Source of the DNA: Curtobacterium sp. HSID17257
GTDB taxonomy: Bacteria > Actinomycetota > Actinomycetes > Actinomycetales > Microbacteriaceae
Direction: 5' to 3'
Assembly: GCF_003989515.1 (NCBI RefSeq)
Contig: NZ_RBLU01000005.1
Location: 1 to 64,000 of the forward strand
Length of the DNA stretch: 64,000 nucleotides
Below are positions 1,348 to 5,607 of this stretch, one piece after another (the stretch's first letter is position 1; every line of letters begins with the position of its first letter). The notes beneath the pieces were generated by a model, which had not been told where the DNA came from, made no database searches, and saw only the letters and a list, made by a program, of their open reading frames with translations. The position numbers were made by a program, and so were the translations under genes.

Positions 1348-2592
1348 GTGTGGCCCAACCACGAGCGCGTCATCCCGCAGGCCTTCGCCGGCTCCGGGAC
1401 CTCCGTCGTGGCCGCACGCGCGCACTCGGTCGAGCCGTCGGGCAACGGGTACCTCTACGGCTACGAGGTCGACACCGTGGACCGGGCCGGGCAGCGCGCC
1501 ACCGTCCTGACCTACGTCGACACCGGTGGCGCCCACGACCAGAACAGCGCCATCGTCACCGACCCCGCCACCGGTGAGCCCGTCTCGGTCTGGGCCTACC
1601 CGAACGACCCGGGGTTGCCGGTGCTGCCGCAGGTGACGTACCGCGACGCCGTCGCCGAGCTCCTCGCGGGCCTCGGCATGCCGGTGACCGATCCGGTGCT
1701 GTCGGTCGCCGCCTACCGCCCGGGCAAGCGTGCGGTGGTGCGCGTCGACGCTCCGGAGCGCGTGCTGTTCCTGAAGATCGTCCGCCCGCACCGAGTCGCG
1801 CCGATCGTCGAGACCCACGAACAGTTCGTCGCGGCCGGGCTGCCGGTCCCGCGGGTGCTGTCGAGCCGGGGCGACGGGCTGCTCGTGCTCGAGCGCATCC
1901 GCGGCGTGCCCGCGGGGAGCCGGATCACCGAGATCGCCGACGACCCGCGGTTCGTCGCGTCCCTCGCCGCCCTGACCGGCCGCATCGCGACGGTCCCGAT
2001 GACGCAGCAGGCGCGAGCCGACGCGATGGACCACGCGGACTGGCACCGCCGGACGCTCGTCGCCGCACTGCCGCAGGACGCCGCCGAGGTCGACGAGCTC
2101 TACGACGCCATCGGTCGCCGGTCCATCGGCTGGGGCGCCGCCACGAAGCAGGTCGTGCACGGCGACCTGCACCTCGAGCAGGTCTTCGTCGACGAGGACG
2201 AGCCGTGGCGCATCTCCGGTCTGCTCGACATCGACACCGCCGGCTGGGGCTTCCCGGTCCGCGACGTCGGGGCGGTCGTCGCCCACCTGGTCGTCACCGG
2301 GCTGTGGCACCGGTCCCGCGGGGACGCGGAGCGCGGGGCCGCGGCCGAGCGGCTCGCCGACGCCGTCGCCCGCGACTGGGTCGCCCGGAACCCCGGGGAG
2401 GCCGACCGCATCGGTCCGGCGATCGGCGCGCAGCTCCTGGCCCACGCGGGCGGGCAGGCCACGACCGGGTCGGAGAACGGGATCCGGACGGCCCAGCAGC
2501 TGTTGGCGGCGACCCGCGCCGCGCTCGCCGAGGCGACGCCGACCGTGCCGTCGGACGGCGTGCTCCGTCCGCGTTCCGCACCGCAGGTCTGA
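1348..2592 (+). CDS. Aminoglycoside phosphotransferase (APH) family kinase
   Basis: A protein of about 414 residues with an APH/choline-kinase-like fold at its C-terminal side. The catalytic loop HGDLHLEQ starts at residue 271, with the presumed catalytic Asp at 273. The metal-binding motif LLDIDTAGWG follows at 292-301. The first 100 residues are unlike the kinase core and may be a maltokinase-like or substrate-recognition cap. The phosphorylated substrate cannot be told from sequence, and nothing points to antibiotic resistance. The GTG at 1348 is preferred to the ATG at 1303 because it leaves room for the divergent FUSC promoter. A loose family I-like inverted repeat follows the stop. Confidence 0.8.
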   Translation: MWPNHERVIPQAFAGSGTSVVAARAHSVEPSGNGYLYGYEVDTVDRAGQRATVLTYVDTGGAHDQNSAIVTDPATGEPVSVWAYPNDPGLPVLPQVTYRDAVAELLAGLGMPVTDPVLSVAAYRPGKRAVVRVDAPERVLFLKIVRPHRVAPIVETHEQFVAAGLPVPRVLSSRGDGLLVLERIRGVPAGSRITEIADDPRFVASLAALTGRIATVPMTQQARADAMDHADWHRRTLVAALPQDAAEVDELYDAIGRRSIGWGAATKQVVHGDLHLEQVFVDEDEPWRISGLLDIDTAGWGFPVRDVGAVVAHLVVTGLWHRSRGDAERGAAAERLADAVARDWVARNPGEADRIGPAIGAQLLAHAGGQATTGSENGIRTAQQLLAATRAALAEATPTVPSDGVLRPRSAPQV

Positions 2593-2632
2593 CCCGGCCG
2601 TCTGCCGGACGCGGCCGGGCAGGCGGCGGGGA

Positions 2633-2690
2633 GTCGCGCCTCCCGACCGACGTCGGTCCCGGCCACGTCGGGTCGGACGGGAGGCACGAC
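2633..2690. repeat. Family I-like inverted repeat downstream of the APH kinase
   Basis: Arms at 2633-2651 and 2672-2690 are 19 nt long with two mismatches, around a 20-nt loop. They contain the GCCTCCCG/CGGGAGGC core of the recurrent family I palindrome, but in the opposite arm order to the other copies. It lies 41 bp after the APH stop codon, so it could end that transcript. Confidence 0.5.
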
Positions 2691-2727
2691 GCGCGCGGGT
2701 CCCGTCGAGTCGCCTCCGTCGGGGGTG

Positions 2728-3067
2728 CGGGAGTAAACTGTGCGCAGCACGCACCGTGTCGTCGCGTGCCGCGTCGTTTCCGGACGCGGCTGTCGGTCAC
2801 AGAACCGACGCGGGGACCGGATCCGTGGGCGTCCGACGGGCACCACGTGCGTGCGACGGCGCCGGCTCCCGGCGCGGATCGTCGTGTCGAGCACCCGCGG
2901 GGTGCCGGCCGCACGAGCCGCAGGAGTCCACCGGACGTCCCACGACGGGACCGGCGCACGAGCGGGCCAGGGTGGCCCGTGGACCGGGGTCGCACCAGAC
3001 GCCGGTCGAGGACTTCCCGCCACGACGGCGGCTCGCCCGTGCGGAACGGGCGCAAGAAGGAGGAGCG
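2728..3067 (+). promoter_or_regulatory. Candidate structured 5' leader of the SNF2 helicase gene, with promoter
   Basis: The 475 bp between the kinase stop (2592) and the helicase start (3068) hold no convincing gene. A -10-like TAAACT lies at 2734-2739. Seven perfect or near-tip hairpins then follow one another: 2769-2789 (7 bp), 2792-2809 (6 bp), 2859-2875 (7 bp), 2891-2905 (6 bp), 2937-2951 (5 bp), 2963-2979 (7 bp) and 3034-3052 (7 bp). The last ends just before the AAGGAGGAG ribosome-binding site at 3057-3065. This arrangement suggests a regulatory RNA leader of about 320 nt. The family is unknown; signature sequences of RNase P RNA, tmRNA and SRP RNA were not found. Confidence 0.45.
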
Positions 3068-5194
3068 TTGGCTCGATCAGGCACCCGGCGAGCAGCCGGC
3101 GGGACGCGGACCGCGTCGCGCCGCACCCGGCCGCTGGACAACGACGGTGTCATCCCGGTGCTCGCCCGCGCGGTGCGCGAGGTCGAGGCCGCGGCGCAGC
3201 GCGGACCGCTCAAGGCGTCCAACCGGTCGAAGTTCCAGGCGGTGGCCCTGCTGATGCGCGAGGAGCGTGCGCGGGTCAAGGCCGACCCGGAGCTCACCGA
3301 CGCGCAGCGTGCCGAGCAGCTCAAGCGTCTCGACGGCGTCGCCACGATCCTGGCGAAGACCGCGGCGCGCGACACCAGCGTGATCCAGCTGCTGACCGAG
3401 GAGGCCTCGGTCAGCGAGGCGACGCGGACGGTCAAGCGCGACATGATGATCGCCGGCGGCATGGAGCTGCAGCCCGAGGAACTCGTCATCGCGGCGGAGC
3501 CCTCGCCCGTGGTCGAGTCGCCCGTACGCGCGGTCGTGCCGCAGGCGGTCGTGCAGCGGCAGCTCGCCAACCCGTTCCTGCCGCCGGACTTCGCCCTCGC
3601 CGACCAGCCCGTCGCGCACCCGCGTCGCCTGGCGAACTGGGAGCTGTTCGGTCCGCTGTTCAAGTCGTTCGAGTACGGCGCGGGCGGGGGAGCGGCGTCG
3701 ATGCAGCTGCCCGAGCCGACGTCGCTGCACTCGCGCTCCGGCACCACGCTGATGAAGCACCAGGCGGAGCTCGTCGCCGCCGCGTCGCACGGACACCGGA
3801 CCTTCCTGCTCGCCGACGAGCCCGGCCTCGGCAAGACCGCGCAGTCGCTGCTCGCCGCCGACGCCGCGAACGCCTTCCCGCTGCTGGTCGTCGTGCCGAA
3901 CGTCGTGAAGACGAACTGGGCGCGCGAGGCCGAGCGCTGGGTGCCGAACCGCACCGCCACCGTCATCCACGGCGACGGCGACGACCTGGACGGCTTCGCC
4001 GACATCGTCATCGTGAACTACGAGATCCTCGACCGGCACGCCGGGTGGCTCGGGTCCTTCGGGTTCAAGGGCATGGTCGTCGACGAGGCGCACTTCATCA
4101 AGAACAAGGAGTCGCAGCGCTCCCGGTTCGTGCTGCAGCTCGCCGAGCAGATCCGTTCGCGGGTGTCGTCGCCGCTGTTCATGGCGTTGACCGGTACCCC
4201 GCTGATCAACTCGGTCGAGGACTTCCGCACGATCTGGGAGTTCCTCGGCTGGATCGACGACAAGAAGCCCCGCGCGACGCTCATGAACGAGCTCGAGGAC
4301 ATCGGGCTCACCCCGGCCGACCCCGGCTTCTTCGTCGAGGCGCGCAAGGCCGTCATCGACCAGGGCATCGTCCGACGCCGCAAGGTCGACGTCGCCGCCG
4401 ACATCCCCGCCCGACGCATCGCCGACATCCCGGTCGAGCTCGACGGTGACGAGGGCCGCTCGATCCGCGACGCCGAGCGGGAGCTCACCGCGAAGCTCGT
4501 CCGCCGCTACCACCAGGCGCTCGACGCCCGCACCGGGCAGGACCCGGTCGTCGGCATCGACCACAAGCTCGTGCGCCAGGTCGCGCGGTGGGAGCTCGAG
4601 GACCAGGACGCGTCGTCGACCGGCGAGAACGTGTTCTCGATGGTGCGGCGCATCGGTCGCGCCAAGGCGCAGCTCGCGGCGGACTACGCGGCGCAGCTCG
4701 CGTCGAACGTCGGCAAGGTCGTGTTCTTCGCCAAGCACCTCGACGTGATGGACCAGGCGGAGGAGGTCTTCGCCCGTCGGCACCTGAAGACCGCGACGGT
4801 CCGCGGCGACCAGACGCCCGCGCAGCGCACGGCCGAGATCGACGCGTTCGTGAACGACCCCGACGTGGCCGTGATCGTCTGCTCGCTCACCGCCGCCGGC
4901 GTCGGCCTGAACCTGCAGGTGGCGTCGAACGTCGTGCTCGCCGAGCTGTCGTGGACGTCGGCCGAGCAGACCCAGGCGATCGACCGGGTGCACCGCATCG
5001 GGCAGGAAGAGCCCGTCACCGCGTGGCGCATCATCGCGGCGCAGACGATCGACACCAAGATCGCCGAGCTCATCGACTCGAAGGCGTCCCTGGCCGCCCG
5101 CGCGCTCGACGGCTCCGACGAGGAGATCGCCGACTCGGGCGACATCCAGCTCGACGCGATGGTGGCGCTGCTGACGGAGGCGCTCGGGGGCTGA
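3068..5194 (+). CDS. SNF2-family DEAD/DEAH-box helicase/ATPase
   Basis: A protein of about 708 residues starting with TTG at 3068, 3 nt after a strong AAGGAGGAG ribosome-binding site; the upstream continuation of the frame is biased like leader sequence and was rejected. Residues 1-220 are a basic and helical N-terminal region of unknown role. The SNF2 ATPase follows: Walker A in LADEPGLGKT near 248-258, DEAH box in VVDEAHFIKN near 337, motif III LTGTPL, and a C-terminal helicase domain with VHRIGQ near 641. The family moves along double-stranded DNA and remodels bound proteins or forks. The target is unknown. A convergent terminator palindrome follows at 5257. Confidence 0.85.
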   Translation: MARSGTRRAAGGTRTASRRTRPLDNDGVIPVLARAVREVEAAAQRGPLKASNRSKFQAVALLMREERARVKADPELTDAQRAEQLKRLDGVATILAKTAARDTSVIQLLTEEASVSEATRTVKRDMMIAGGMELQPEELVIAAEPSPVVESPVRAVVPQAVVQRQLANPFLPPDFALADQPVAHPRRLANWELFGPLFKSFEYGAGGGAASMQLPEPTSLHSRSGTTLMKHQAELVAAASHGHRTFLLADEPGLGKTAQSLLAADAANAFPLLVVVPNVVKTNWAREAERWVPNRTATVIHGDGDDLDGFADIVIVNYEILDRHAGWLGSFGFKGMVVDEAHFIKNKESQRSRFVLQLAEQIRSRVSSPLFMALTGTPLINSVEDFRTIWEFLGWIDDKKPRATLMNELEDIGLTPADPGFFVEARKAVIDQGIVRRRKVDVAADIPARRIADIPVELDGDEGRSIRDAERELTAKLVRRYHQALDARTGQDPVVGIDHKLVRQVARWELEDQDASSTGENVFSMVRRIGRAKAQLAADYAAQLASNVGKVVFFAKHLDVMDQAEEVFARRHLKTATVRGDQTPAQRTAEIDAFVNDPDVAVIVCSLTAAGVGLNLQVASNVVLAELSWTSAEQTQAIDRVHRIGQEEPVTAWRIIAAQTIDTKIAELIDSKASLAARALDGSDEEIADSGDIQLDAMVALLTEALGG

Positions 5195-5256: not shown

Positions 5257-5316
5257 GCACAACACGAAGCGGCTCGAACCACGGAATCCCGTGGTTCGAG
5301 CCGCTTCTGGTTGTGC
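5257..5316. terminator. Bidirectional terminator palindrome, family II
   Basis: An 18-bp perfect stem (5267-5284 with 5289-5306), loop AATC, is enclosed by a second 7-bp stem (5257-5263 with 5310-5316). It sits between the convergent helicase and mycoredoxin genes. There is no U-tract. The same architecture recurs near lexA at 63254-63313. Confidence 0.8.
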
Positions 5317-5334: not shown

Positions 5335-5607
5335 TCAGATGCGCGACTGCACCTCGGCCAGGGACGGGTTCGTCGCCGTGCTGCCGTCCGGGAAGACCAG
5401 CGTCGGCACGGTCTGGTTGCCGCCGTTGACCTCGGCGACGAGCTCGGCCGTGCCCGGGGTGTGCTCGATGTCGACCTCGCGGAAGGGCACACCAGCCTTG
5501 GTCATCTGGTTCTTCAGCCGGGCGCAGTAGCCGCACCAGGTCGTCGTGAACATCGTGACGCCGCCGGCCTCGGGCACGAACGCGTCGCGGGTGACTGTCT
5601 CGCTCAT
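5335..5607 (-). CDS. Mycoredoxin (glutaredoxin-like protein)
   Basis: A 90-residue thioredoxin-fold protein. The active site is WCGYC with cysteines at 25 and 28, followed by the cis-proline loop TVP at 66-68. CGYC and the short length match actinobacterial mycoredoxins, which use mycothiol to reduce mycothiolated proteins in the cytosol. ATG at 5607 is the start; further upstream the frame runs into the divergent CYTH gene. It ends against the bidirectional terminator it shares with the helicase gene. Confidence 0.85.
   Translation of the reverse strand: MSETVTRDAFVPEAGGVTMFTTTWCGYCARLKNQMTKAGVPFREVDIEHTPGTAELVAEVNGGNQTVPTLVFPDGSTATNPSLAEVQSRI

Follow-up and report, generated by a model that had tools for sequence, protein, structure and literature searches.

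A predicted junction fold with compensatory changes in the leader of an SNF2-family helicase gene of Curtobacterium

Metabolite riboswitches, as a rule, are found upstream of several genes and have a core that is kept across phyla, and ompA and aprE represent the type of 5′ stem-loop that stabilises an mRNA. For the leaders of ribosomal protein L31, five apparently unrelated hairpin motifs are reported (PMC7247131). The ANTAR RNAs are described as two stems with hexanucleotide loops that carry A at position 1 and G at position 4 (PMC8164766). In titles and abstract openings, a scope outside which many subscription journals lie, neither a bacterial SNF2 leader nor leader RNAs of Curtobacterium are described.

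The DNA considered here is a 64-kb stretch (the window) from Curtobacterium, a plant- and soil-associated bacterium, with a GC content of 72%. A gap at 2593–3067 separates a phosphotransferase-like gene from an SNF2-family helicase gene, all on the same strand:

1303–2592, same strand as the SNF2 gene: phosphotransferase-like gene (APH, E = 5.9e-18)
3068–5194, + strand: SNF2-family helicase/translocase gene, 708 aa, with an Arg-rich N-terminal tail (SNF2-rel_dom, E = 5.4e-25; Helicase_C, E = 4.5e-14)

The named relatives of the helicase include those from C. pusillum, C. flaccumfaciens and C. luteum, at 84–100% identity, and the next nearest come from Frondihabitans and Frigoribacterium (67–70%). 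The nearest solved chain is 1z63, a snf2/rad54-family helicase (E = 6.1e-31). The protein resembles solved snf2/rad54-type helicases and the phage-defence helicases DpdE, ZorD and DrmD, mainly in the motor part, and its scores against the NCBIfam defence models were far under the curated cut-offs. Its first 200 residues were matched in 274 of 299 family genomes. A basic tail was present on all N-termini inspected (four from Curtobacterium and nine others): the N-terminal 28 residues of 64 Curtobacterium sequences have a mean net charge of +0.18 per residue, and the tails of the nine other genera range in charge from +3 to +8, compared with −13 for the whole protein. Behind the gene, and before a convergent, glutaredoxin-like gene on the minus strand (5335–5607), inspection by eye showed an inverted repeat of 19 perfectly matched bp around a 4-nt loop (window 5266–5307), probably a two-way terminator.

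The gap contains a leader of ≈320 nt between a TAAACT box and the SNF2 gene. The fold of this leader was derived from RNAalifold on 57 leaders together with a hand-corrected structure; in it, helix P1 encloses P1a and P4, P1a encloses P2 and P3, and P5 follows. The leaders were taken from 65 genus loci (L009–L075, minus L010 and L011, which coincide with L074 and L075). Alignment A1 holds 57 distinct leaders, after removal of the duplicates L019 and L060, and is also without L027, L045, L070, L071, L072 and L073, for which the pattern failed to place the core start. Alignment A2 holds 30 of 36 non-redundant cores; L062–L067, which have insertions in P4, were left out. The features are as follows:

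2692–2742, + strand: promoter-like region, with a −10-like TAAACT at 2734–2739 inside GGGAGTAAACTG and without a TTGACA-like −35
2747–2883 (137 nt), + strand: leader core (P1, P1a, P2, P3, P4 and P5; model R1), from the covariance model and covariation
2747–2754 with 2847–2854, + strand: helix P1; 99.6% of cells paired, near-invariant, one-sided changes only
2759–2765 with 2810–2816, + strand: helix P1a, around P2 and P3; changes on both sides in 3 of 7 pairs
2768–2790, + strand: hairpin P2; changes on both sides in 2 of 7 pairs, 96.2% of cells paired
2792–2809, + strand: hairpin P3; changes on both sides in 3 of 7 pairs, six double changes on the tree with the pair kept in all six
2825–2846, + strand: hairpin P4, with a variable tip and insertions in one clade; changes on both sides in 4 of 10 pairs, 88.2% of cells paired
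2855–2883, + strand: hairpin P5; upper stem paired in 96.1% of cells and mostly invariant, lower stem paired in 90% and without compensatory change
2884–3010, + strand: variable linker including hairpin P6 (2964–2978); little conserved, with most of it deleted in L057 and L058
3011–3052, + strand: ribosome-site-proximal part, with GACTTCC at 3011–3017, P7 at 3017–3031 and P8 at 3034–3052
3057–3074, + strand: Shine-Dalgarno sequence, TTG start (3068) and a small hairpin, GAGC-GTTG-GCTC, around the start; letters unchanged in A1

The earlier note had described this region as a row of seven independent local hairpins within 2769–3052, with a very strong ribosome-binding site before a TTG start. 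That hairpins are dense here was confirmed. When a hairpin is defined as a perfect Watson–Crick stem of at least 5 bp with a loop of 3–10, there are eight that do not overlap (2769–2789, 2792–2809, 2859–2875, 2891–2905, 2937–2951, 2963–2979, 3017–3031 and 3034–3052), a moderate excess over what the high GC content gives. Segments of 284 nt taken over the 64 kb (step 71) contained 3.5 hairpins on average; 8 of 898 (0.9%) contained eight and none more, in a background that kept the segments overlapping the leader region itself. The mean in dinucleotide shuffles was 4.46, and eight were reached in 9 of 500. The folding energy was mildly low (z = −1.8 for 2747–2883 and −2.2 for 2747–3067), and this predicted quantity alone is weak evidence for a structured leader. 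However, the fold that is conserved is not a row of local hairpins: P1 forms a long-range helix around P1a, P2, P3 and P4, and two of the local hairpins (2891–2905 and 2937–2951) sit where relatives vary or have deletions. The strong ribosome-binding site and the start proved to be real, since the alignment placed the start in 64 of the 65 genus loci, as TTG in 62 and GTG in two. The frame stays open as far back as 2756; an N-terminally longer SNF2 protein that would run through the leader was rejected: an in-frame stop occurs within 335 nt upstream in 44 of 64 relatives, and the conserved TTG/GTG start and ribosome site also contradict it.

The promoter-like region was aligned in 59 of 62 leaders that had been picked for AGTA(A/C)ACTG, so the invariance of the box is partly by construction; the remaining three leaders read CTAAACTG, GTAAACTG and CTAGACTG at the position of the box. 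Near-invariant in the 59 are GCGCGG, TCGCC and GGAGTA. The block as a whole reads GCGCGG, TCGCC and GGAGTAAACTG, with GCACGCAC downstream of it, and a site search found no two-box sigma-70 site at the leader. Within the 42 bp 5′ of the −10 box (2692–2733), GCGCGG and TCGCC match the leader core in their degree of conservation. No −35 consensus is present there, and the blocks may represent an operator or a site for an alternative sigma factor. Only 7 nt separate the end of the −10 box (2739) from the beginning of the core (2747), and transcription would start at ≈2745–2747. The conserved box argues against a transcription start near 3068. The start lies 325–344 nt from the box in 50 of the 59 leaders, 368–393 nt in seven and ≈260 nt in two, in which the middle is mostly deleted.

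Downstream of the variable linker, conservation resumes strongly with GACTTCC (present in 56 of 57 leaders), two hairpins, AGGAGGAGC and TTGGCTCGATCAGG. The ribosome site lies ≈185 nt away from the core. P7 is paired in 83.4% of cells and P8 in 98.6%, and neither has any double change that keeps a pair; P6, within the linker, is paired in 99.3% and is almost invariant, without covariation. P1, P6, P8 and the start-codon hairpin barely vary and are hence outside the reach of covariation, while P4 and the lower stem of P5 have many breaks. The invariance of the start-codon hairpin speaks neither for nor against it. In the predicted ensembles of the 57 leaders, the Shine-Dalgarno sequence is about half accessible (mean unpaired probability 0.54, range 0.25–0.90), and no result of the analysis suggests the thermosensor-like leader that the earlier note had also put forward, in which a weak, melting hairpin would sequester this site. 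GACTTCC was considered as an anti-Shine-Dalgarno sequence and rejected, as the predicted pairing is weak (mean pair probability 0.05, maximum 0.82, in the same 57 leaders). An alternative pairing near the Shine-Dalgarno sequence, GGGCG-CGCCC, is possible in 93% of cells and overlaps P7 and P8 in its letters.

Compensatory changes in relatives, which the earlier note had named as its own test, were found both by shuffling and on the tree. In the 30 cores of A2, 94.6% of 1456 cells at the 49 pairs are paired, and changes on both sides occur in 12 pairs and 67 cells. Shuffled nulls gave a mean of 26.6 such cells and never reached 67 (0 of 500); the number of covarying pairs (mean 9.8) reached 12 in 47 of 500. 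The covariation score of the core, 0.206 against 0.136 in shuffles, was likewise reached in 0 of 500, and pairing fell to 22–53% when the partner columns were displaced by one to three positions. Because the relatives share ancestry, changes were also counted on a FastTree tree of the 57 leaders. Double changes fell on 15 branches, with the pair kept in 12, compared with 3.5 and 1.7 upon random re-pairing; single changes kept the pair 114 times and broke it 69 times, compared with 84 and 122. Re-pairings as extreme numbered 0 of 2000 each for double changes, kept pairs and breaks. P4 has six double changes on the tree, of which three kept the pair, and 35 single changes that broke one. A script for an all-pairs test similar to R-scape, with 60 simulated null alignments that preserve the phylogeny, found 0 of 52,003 column pairs significant at E ≤ 0.05; such a shallow set may give the test little power, but we count it as negative. 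G-U cells outnumber A-C cells by 107 to 32 in the core, an excess expected if the RNA of the + strand is selected.

Leader DNA was matched in 61 of 66 genus genomes, mostly from window position ≈2674–2687 onwards, so that conservation does not extend to the DNA immediately 3′ of the phosphotransferase-like gene. The covariance model R1 found the core once in its own genome (E = 4.4e-20; next match, E = 7.4) and in 61 of the 66 genus genomes, each time at the SNF2 leader by coordinates, with one weak match elsewhere (E = 0.07). Among 120 family genomes only three matched, all of them Curtobacterium. R1 misses five of the 66 (G002, G024, G043, G044 and G057). G057 is without a clear DNA match to the leader region; in the other four, judged by eye, the leader has diverged and the ribosome site and a TAnnnT-type box are retained. 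In Curtobacterium ammoniigenes (G002, locus L070), which is among those missed, the ribosome site is kept and the 5′ end is quite different, as if replaced.

In other genera of the family, two further recurring motifs precede SNF2, by eye just 3′ of a TAnnnT box. The complex motif (model R2) consists of P1, a nine-nt loop, a CUCGA stem, a UUGC loop and P3, and the simple one (model R3) of P1, a GUC bulge and a CCRG/CYGG stem; the internal loops UUGC and GUC are nearly fixed. The initial choice and trimming of both motifs was done by eye. The simple type was aligned from 11 of 14 sequences (A5; L114, L119 and L120 dropped after A3) and the complex type from 10 of 17 (A6; L096, L098, L121 and L128 never aligned, L102, L108 and L130 dropped after A4). 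In these alignments, changes on both sides occur in 7 of 16 pairs for R2 (20 cells, 6.8 expected) and in 7 of 12 pairs for R3 (17 cells, 9.4 expected). Shuffles reached the cell counts in 0 of 500 each and the pair counts in 9 and 31 of 500, respectively. The enlarged alignments (A7 and A8) gave 59 changed cells against 19.0 (R2) and 51 against 19.4 (R3), counts that lean towards the structure, as these alignments were fitted to the models' own structures with training members included. G-U and A-C cells number 29 and 7 in R2, again the excess expected of a selected + strand RNA; the 27 and 22 of R3 leave the strand undecided.

Searches of 199 family genomes with each model yielded 19 matches for R2 at E ≤ 1.4e-5 and 21 for R3 at E ≤ 3.9e-4, the limits to which positions were checked. 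By coordinates or by reading of the locus, all 19 of the former and 20 of the latter, 39 of 40 in total, lie just upstream of SNF2, and the single off-target R3 match lies inside an unrelated ORF. Fourteen of the 39 are in genomes that contributed training sequences and 25 in genomes outside the training. On the Curtobacterium leader, the best scores of R2 and R3 were 8.3 and 7.0 bits, on the other strand, and 6.9 and 5.7 bits on the + strand, which we took as not found. As far as the models tell, therefore, three separate structures occupy one place. At the level of the order, R2 matched 3 of 198 genomes at E ≤ 0.001, none at SNF2: G355, of the same family, far from its own SNF2 gene, and G398 and G433, of other families. 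All three matches overlap open frames of at least 190 codons and were rejected as chance, which indicates that the E-values of such short models are optimistic.

Two side observations come from the SNF2 orthologues of other families. In L298 (984–1358) and L302 (1039–1413), both of family f10 of the same order, the orthologue comes immediately after an RNase P RNA gene (RF00010). The leaders L288, L289, L292 and L299 have in common a TCACCATC-type stretch 126–198 nt before a start-like site, with a similar one, by eye, in L295; this stretch may be a further leader motif.

No Rfam covariance model reached its gathering score in the 64-kb window or in 20 related loci, and a lax threshold gave a single match in 2580–3120 (E = 3.3, other strand). 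No intrinsic terminator-like site, as an attenuator would have, was found in 2560–3110. Nor does the gap 2593–3067 contain a conserved small ORF that could be a uORF or encode a leader peptide. Start-codon columns common to at least 80% of the 57 leaders number three. One candidate, a GTG in P1 present in 57 of 57 rows, starts a frame that in 47 of 57 rows has no stop before the end, and was rejected: its phase relative to the SNF2 start is scattered over all three values (13, 29 and 15), and 46 of 57 rows are also open in the next frame but one, as expected of chance open frames in GC-rich DNA.

Taken from aligned sequences, these results indicate that a conserved, covarying fold is very probably tied to this one SNF2 gene. 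Of the proposals in the earlier note, that of a cis-regulatory leader RNA thus stands with regard to a structured leader with compensatory changes, and falls with regard to the seven hairpins. Compensatory changes for one fold, and a position on the same strand before one gene, are what a leader acting in cis should display, with the all-pairs test on the negative side, and we infer that the leader is likely to act in cis on helicase expression. That it does so as a gene-specific element responsive to some protein, which we leave unnamed, has in our estimate a little under an even chance. With one gene, one copy and structures that differ between genera, the system resembles r-protein leaders more than riboswitches. 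Transcribed together with SNF2 from the promoter with the −10 box at 2734–2739, the ≈320-nt leader would fold over its first ≈137 nt into a junction, with P1 around P1a/P2/P3 and P4, followed by P5. The Arg-rich tail is a plausible candidate RNA contact, judging by its composition, which makes binding by the helicase itself the first guess for the leader-bound protein; a basic tail also suits DNA binding, which counts against this reading. Surplus helicase bound through its tail would then lower translation or shorten the lifetime of the mRNA, in the manner of r-protein leaders. It is the simplest form of protein control, and we put it forward tentatively. More speculative, and rather doubtful at present, is the extension to the family, that an SNF2-family gene conserved through the Microbacteriaceae controls itself via a leader of at least three builds (the junction in Curtobacterium, the UUGC-loop hairpin and the GUC-bulge hairpin in other genera), of which only the gene and the promoter-proximal position are constant.

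The position of the fold is equally what a 5′-end stabiliser would require, in which P1 closes the presumed end of the transcript and guards a long mRNA from 5′-end-dependent decay, with no ligand regulation. The core begins at 2747, 7 nt after the −10 box, the motifs of other genera also follow closely behind TAnnnT (by eye), and since the requirement would be for a stem of any sequence, the variety of structures among genera fits a stabiliser. However, a plain stem would be enough for this purpose, and a junction with fixed internal letters and near-fixed UUGC and GUC loops exceeds the need; a simple stabiliser accounts for the position and not for the elaborate conserved internal letters, and we regard it as rather unlikely, although it is the strongest of the rivals to a protein-responsive leader. 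A riboswitch, with a small-molecule ligand at the junction and the downstream hairpins as a switch that opens or closes the ribosome site, would explain the multi-helix junction with its conserved letters and could make use of the GGGCG-CGCCC pairing, but the presence of a single copy before a single gene, the confinement of the core to one genus among the genomes searched, the other structures elsewhere in the family and the lack of an Rfam match make it improbable.

The leader might also belong to a stand-alone small RNA, 6S-like for example, that is made from its own promoter and has SNF2 merely downstream. It has a promoter-like box of its own and a compact 5′ fold, and the RNase P loci show that an RNA gene can sit at this place. 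Against this, 2560–3110 holds no terminator-like site, conservation is shared by the core and the ribosome-site-proximal part, and nearly all of the strong family-motif matches stay with the SNF2 gene; with the elements so tied to one gene across the family, the free small RNA that the earlier note had also proposed becomes quite improbable. The high GC content, the negative all-pairs test and the modest folding z would all fit chance hairpins in GC-rich DNA, or a conserved DNA element, with no RNA function at all. This reading we consider very improbable, as the compensatory changes beat shuffles, slides and tree-aware re-pairing, and G-U exceeds A-C in the core.

A cis-acting leader thus remains the preferred reading. 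Together, the three motifs are new, covariance-supported RNA motifs on one conserved gene, without an Rfam match in the window and 20 related loci. If the leader binds the helicase, self-control by interchangeable RNA folds would not be limited to ribosomal proteins, and the leader would provide a handle on the role of the SNF2 protein; if self-control is true, this would be a system like that of the r-leaders, for a helicase outside the ribosome.

Among known systems, the ANTAR-target RNAs are alike in being actinobacterial RNAs with two neighbouring hairpins, here P2 and P3; an assignment to this class was rejected, as the loops of P3 (4 nt) and P2 (7–8 nt, both by eye in A2) are not hexanucleotides. 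Metabolite riboswitches share the 5′ multi-helix junction and the distal hairpins near the ribosome site; unlike them, this leader precedes one gene, with its core in one genus among the genomes searched and no Rfam match. The 5′ stem-loop stabilisers also have a stem at the transcript end, presumed in our case, whereas the present leader is far more elaborate and has conserved letters. The r-leaders, such as those of L31, come closest: they too are structured 5′-UTR domains that belong to a single gene and take several apparently unrelated forms across lineages (PMC7247131). The gene here encodes an SNF2 helicase rather than an r-protein, which places the leader outside that class; no rRNA mimic is known for it, and the binding of a protein is putative here.
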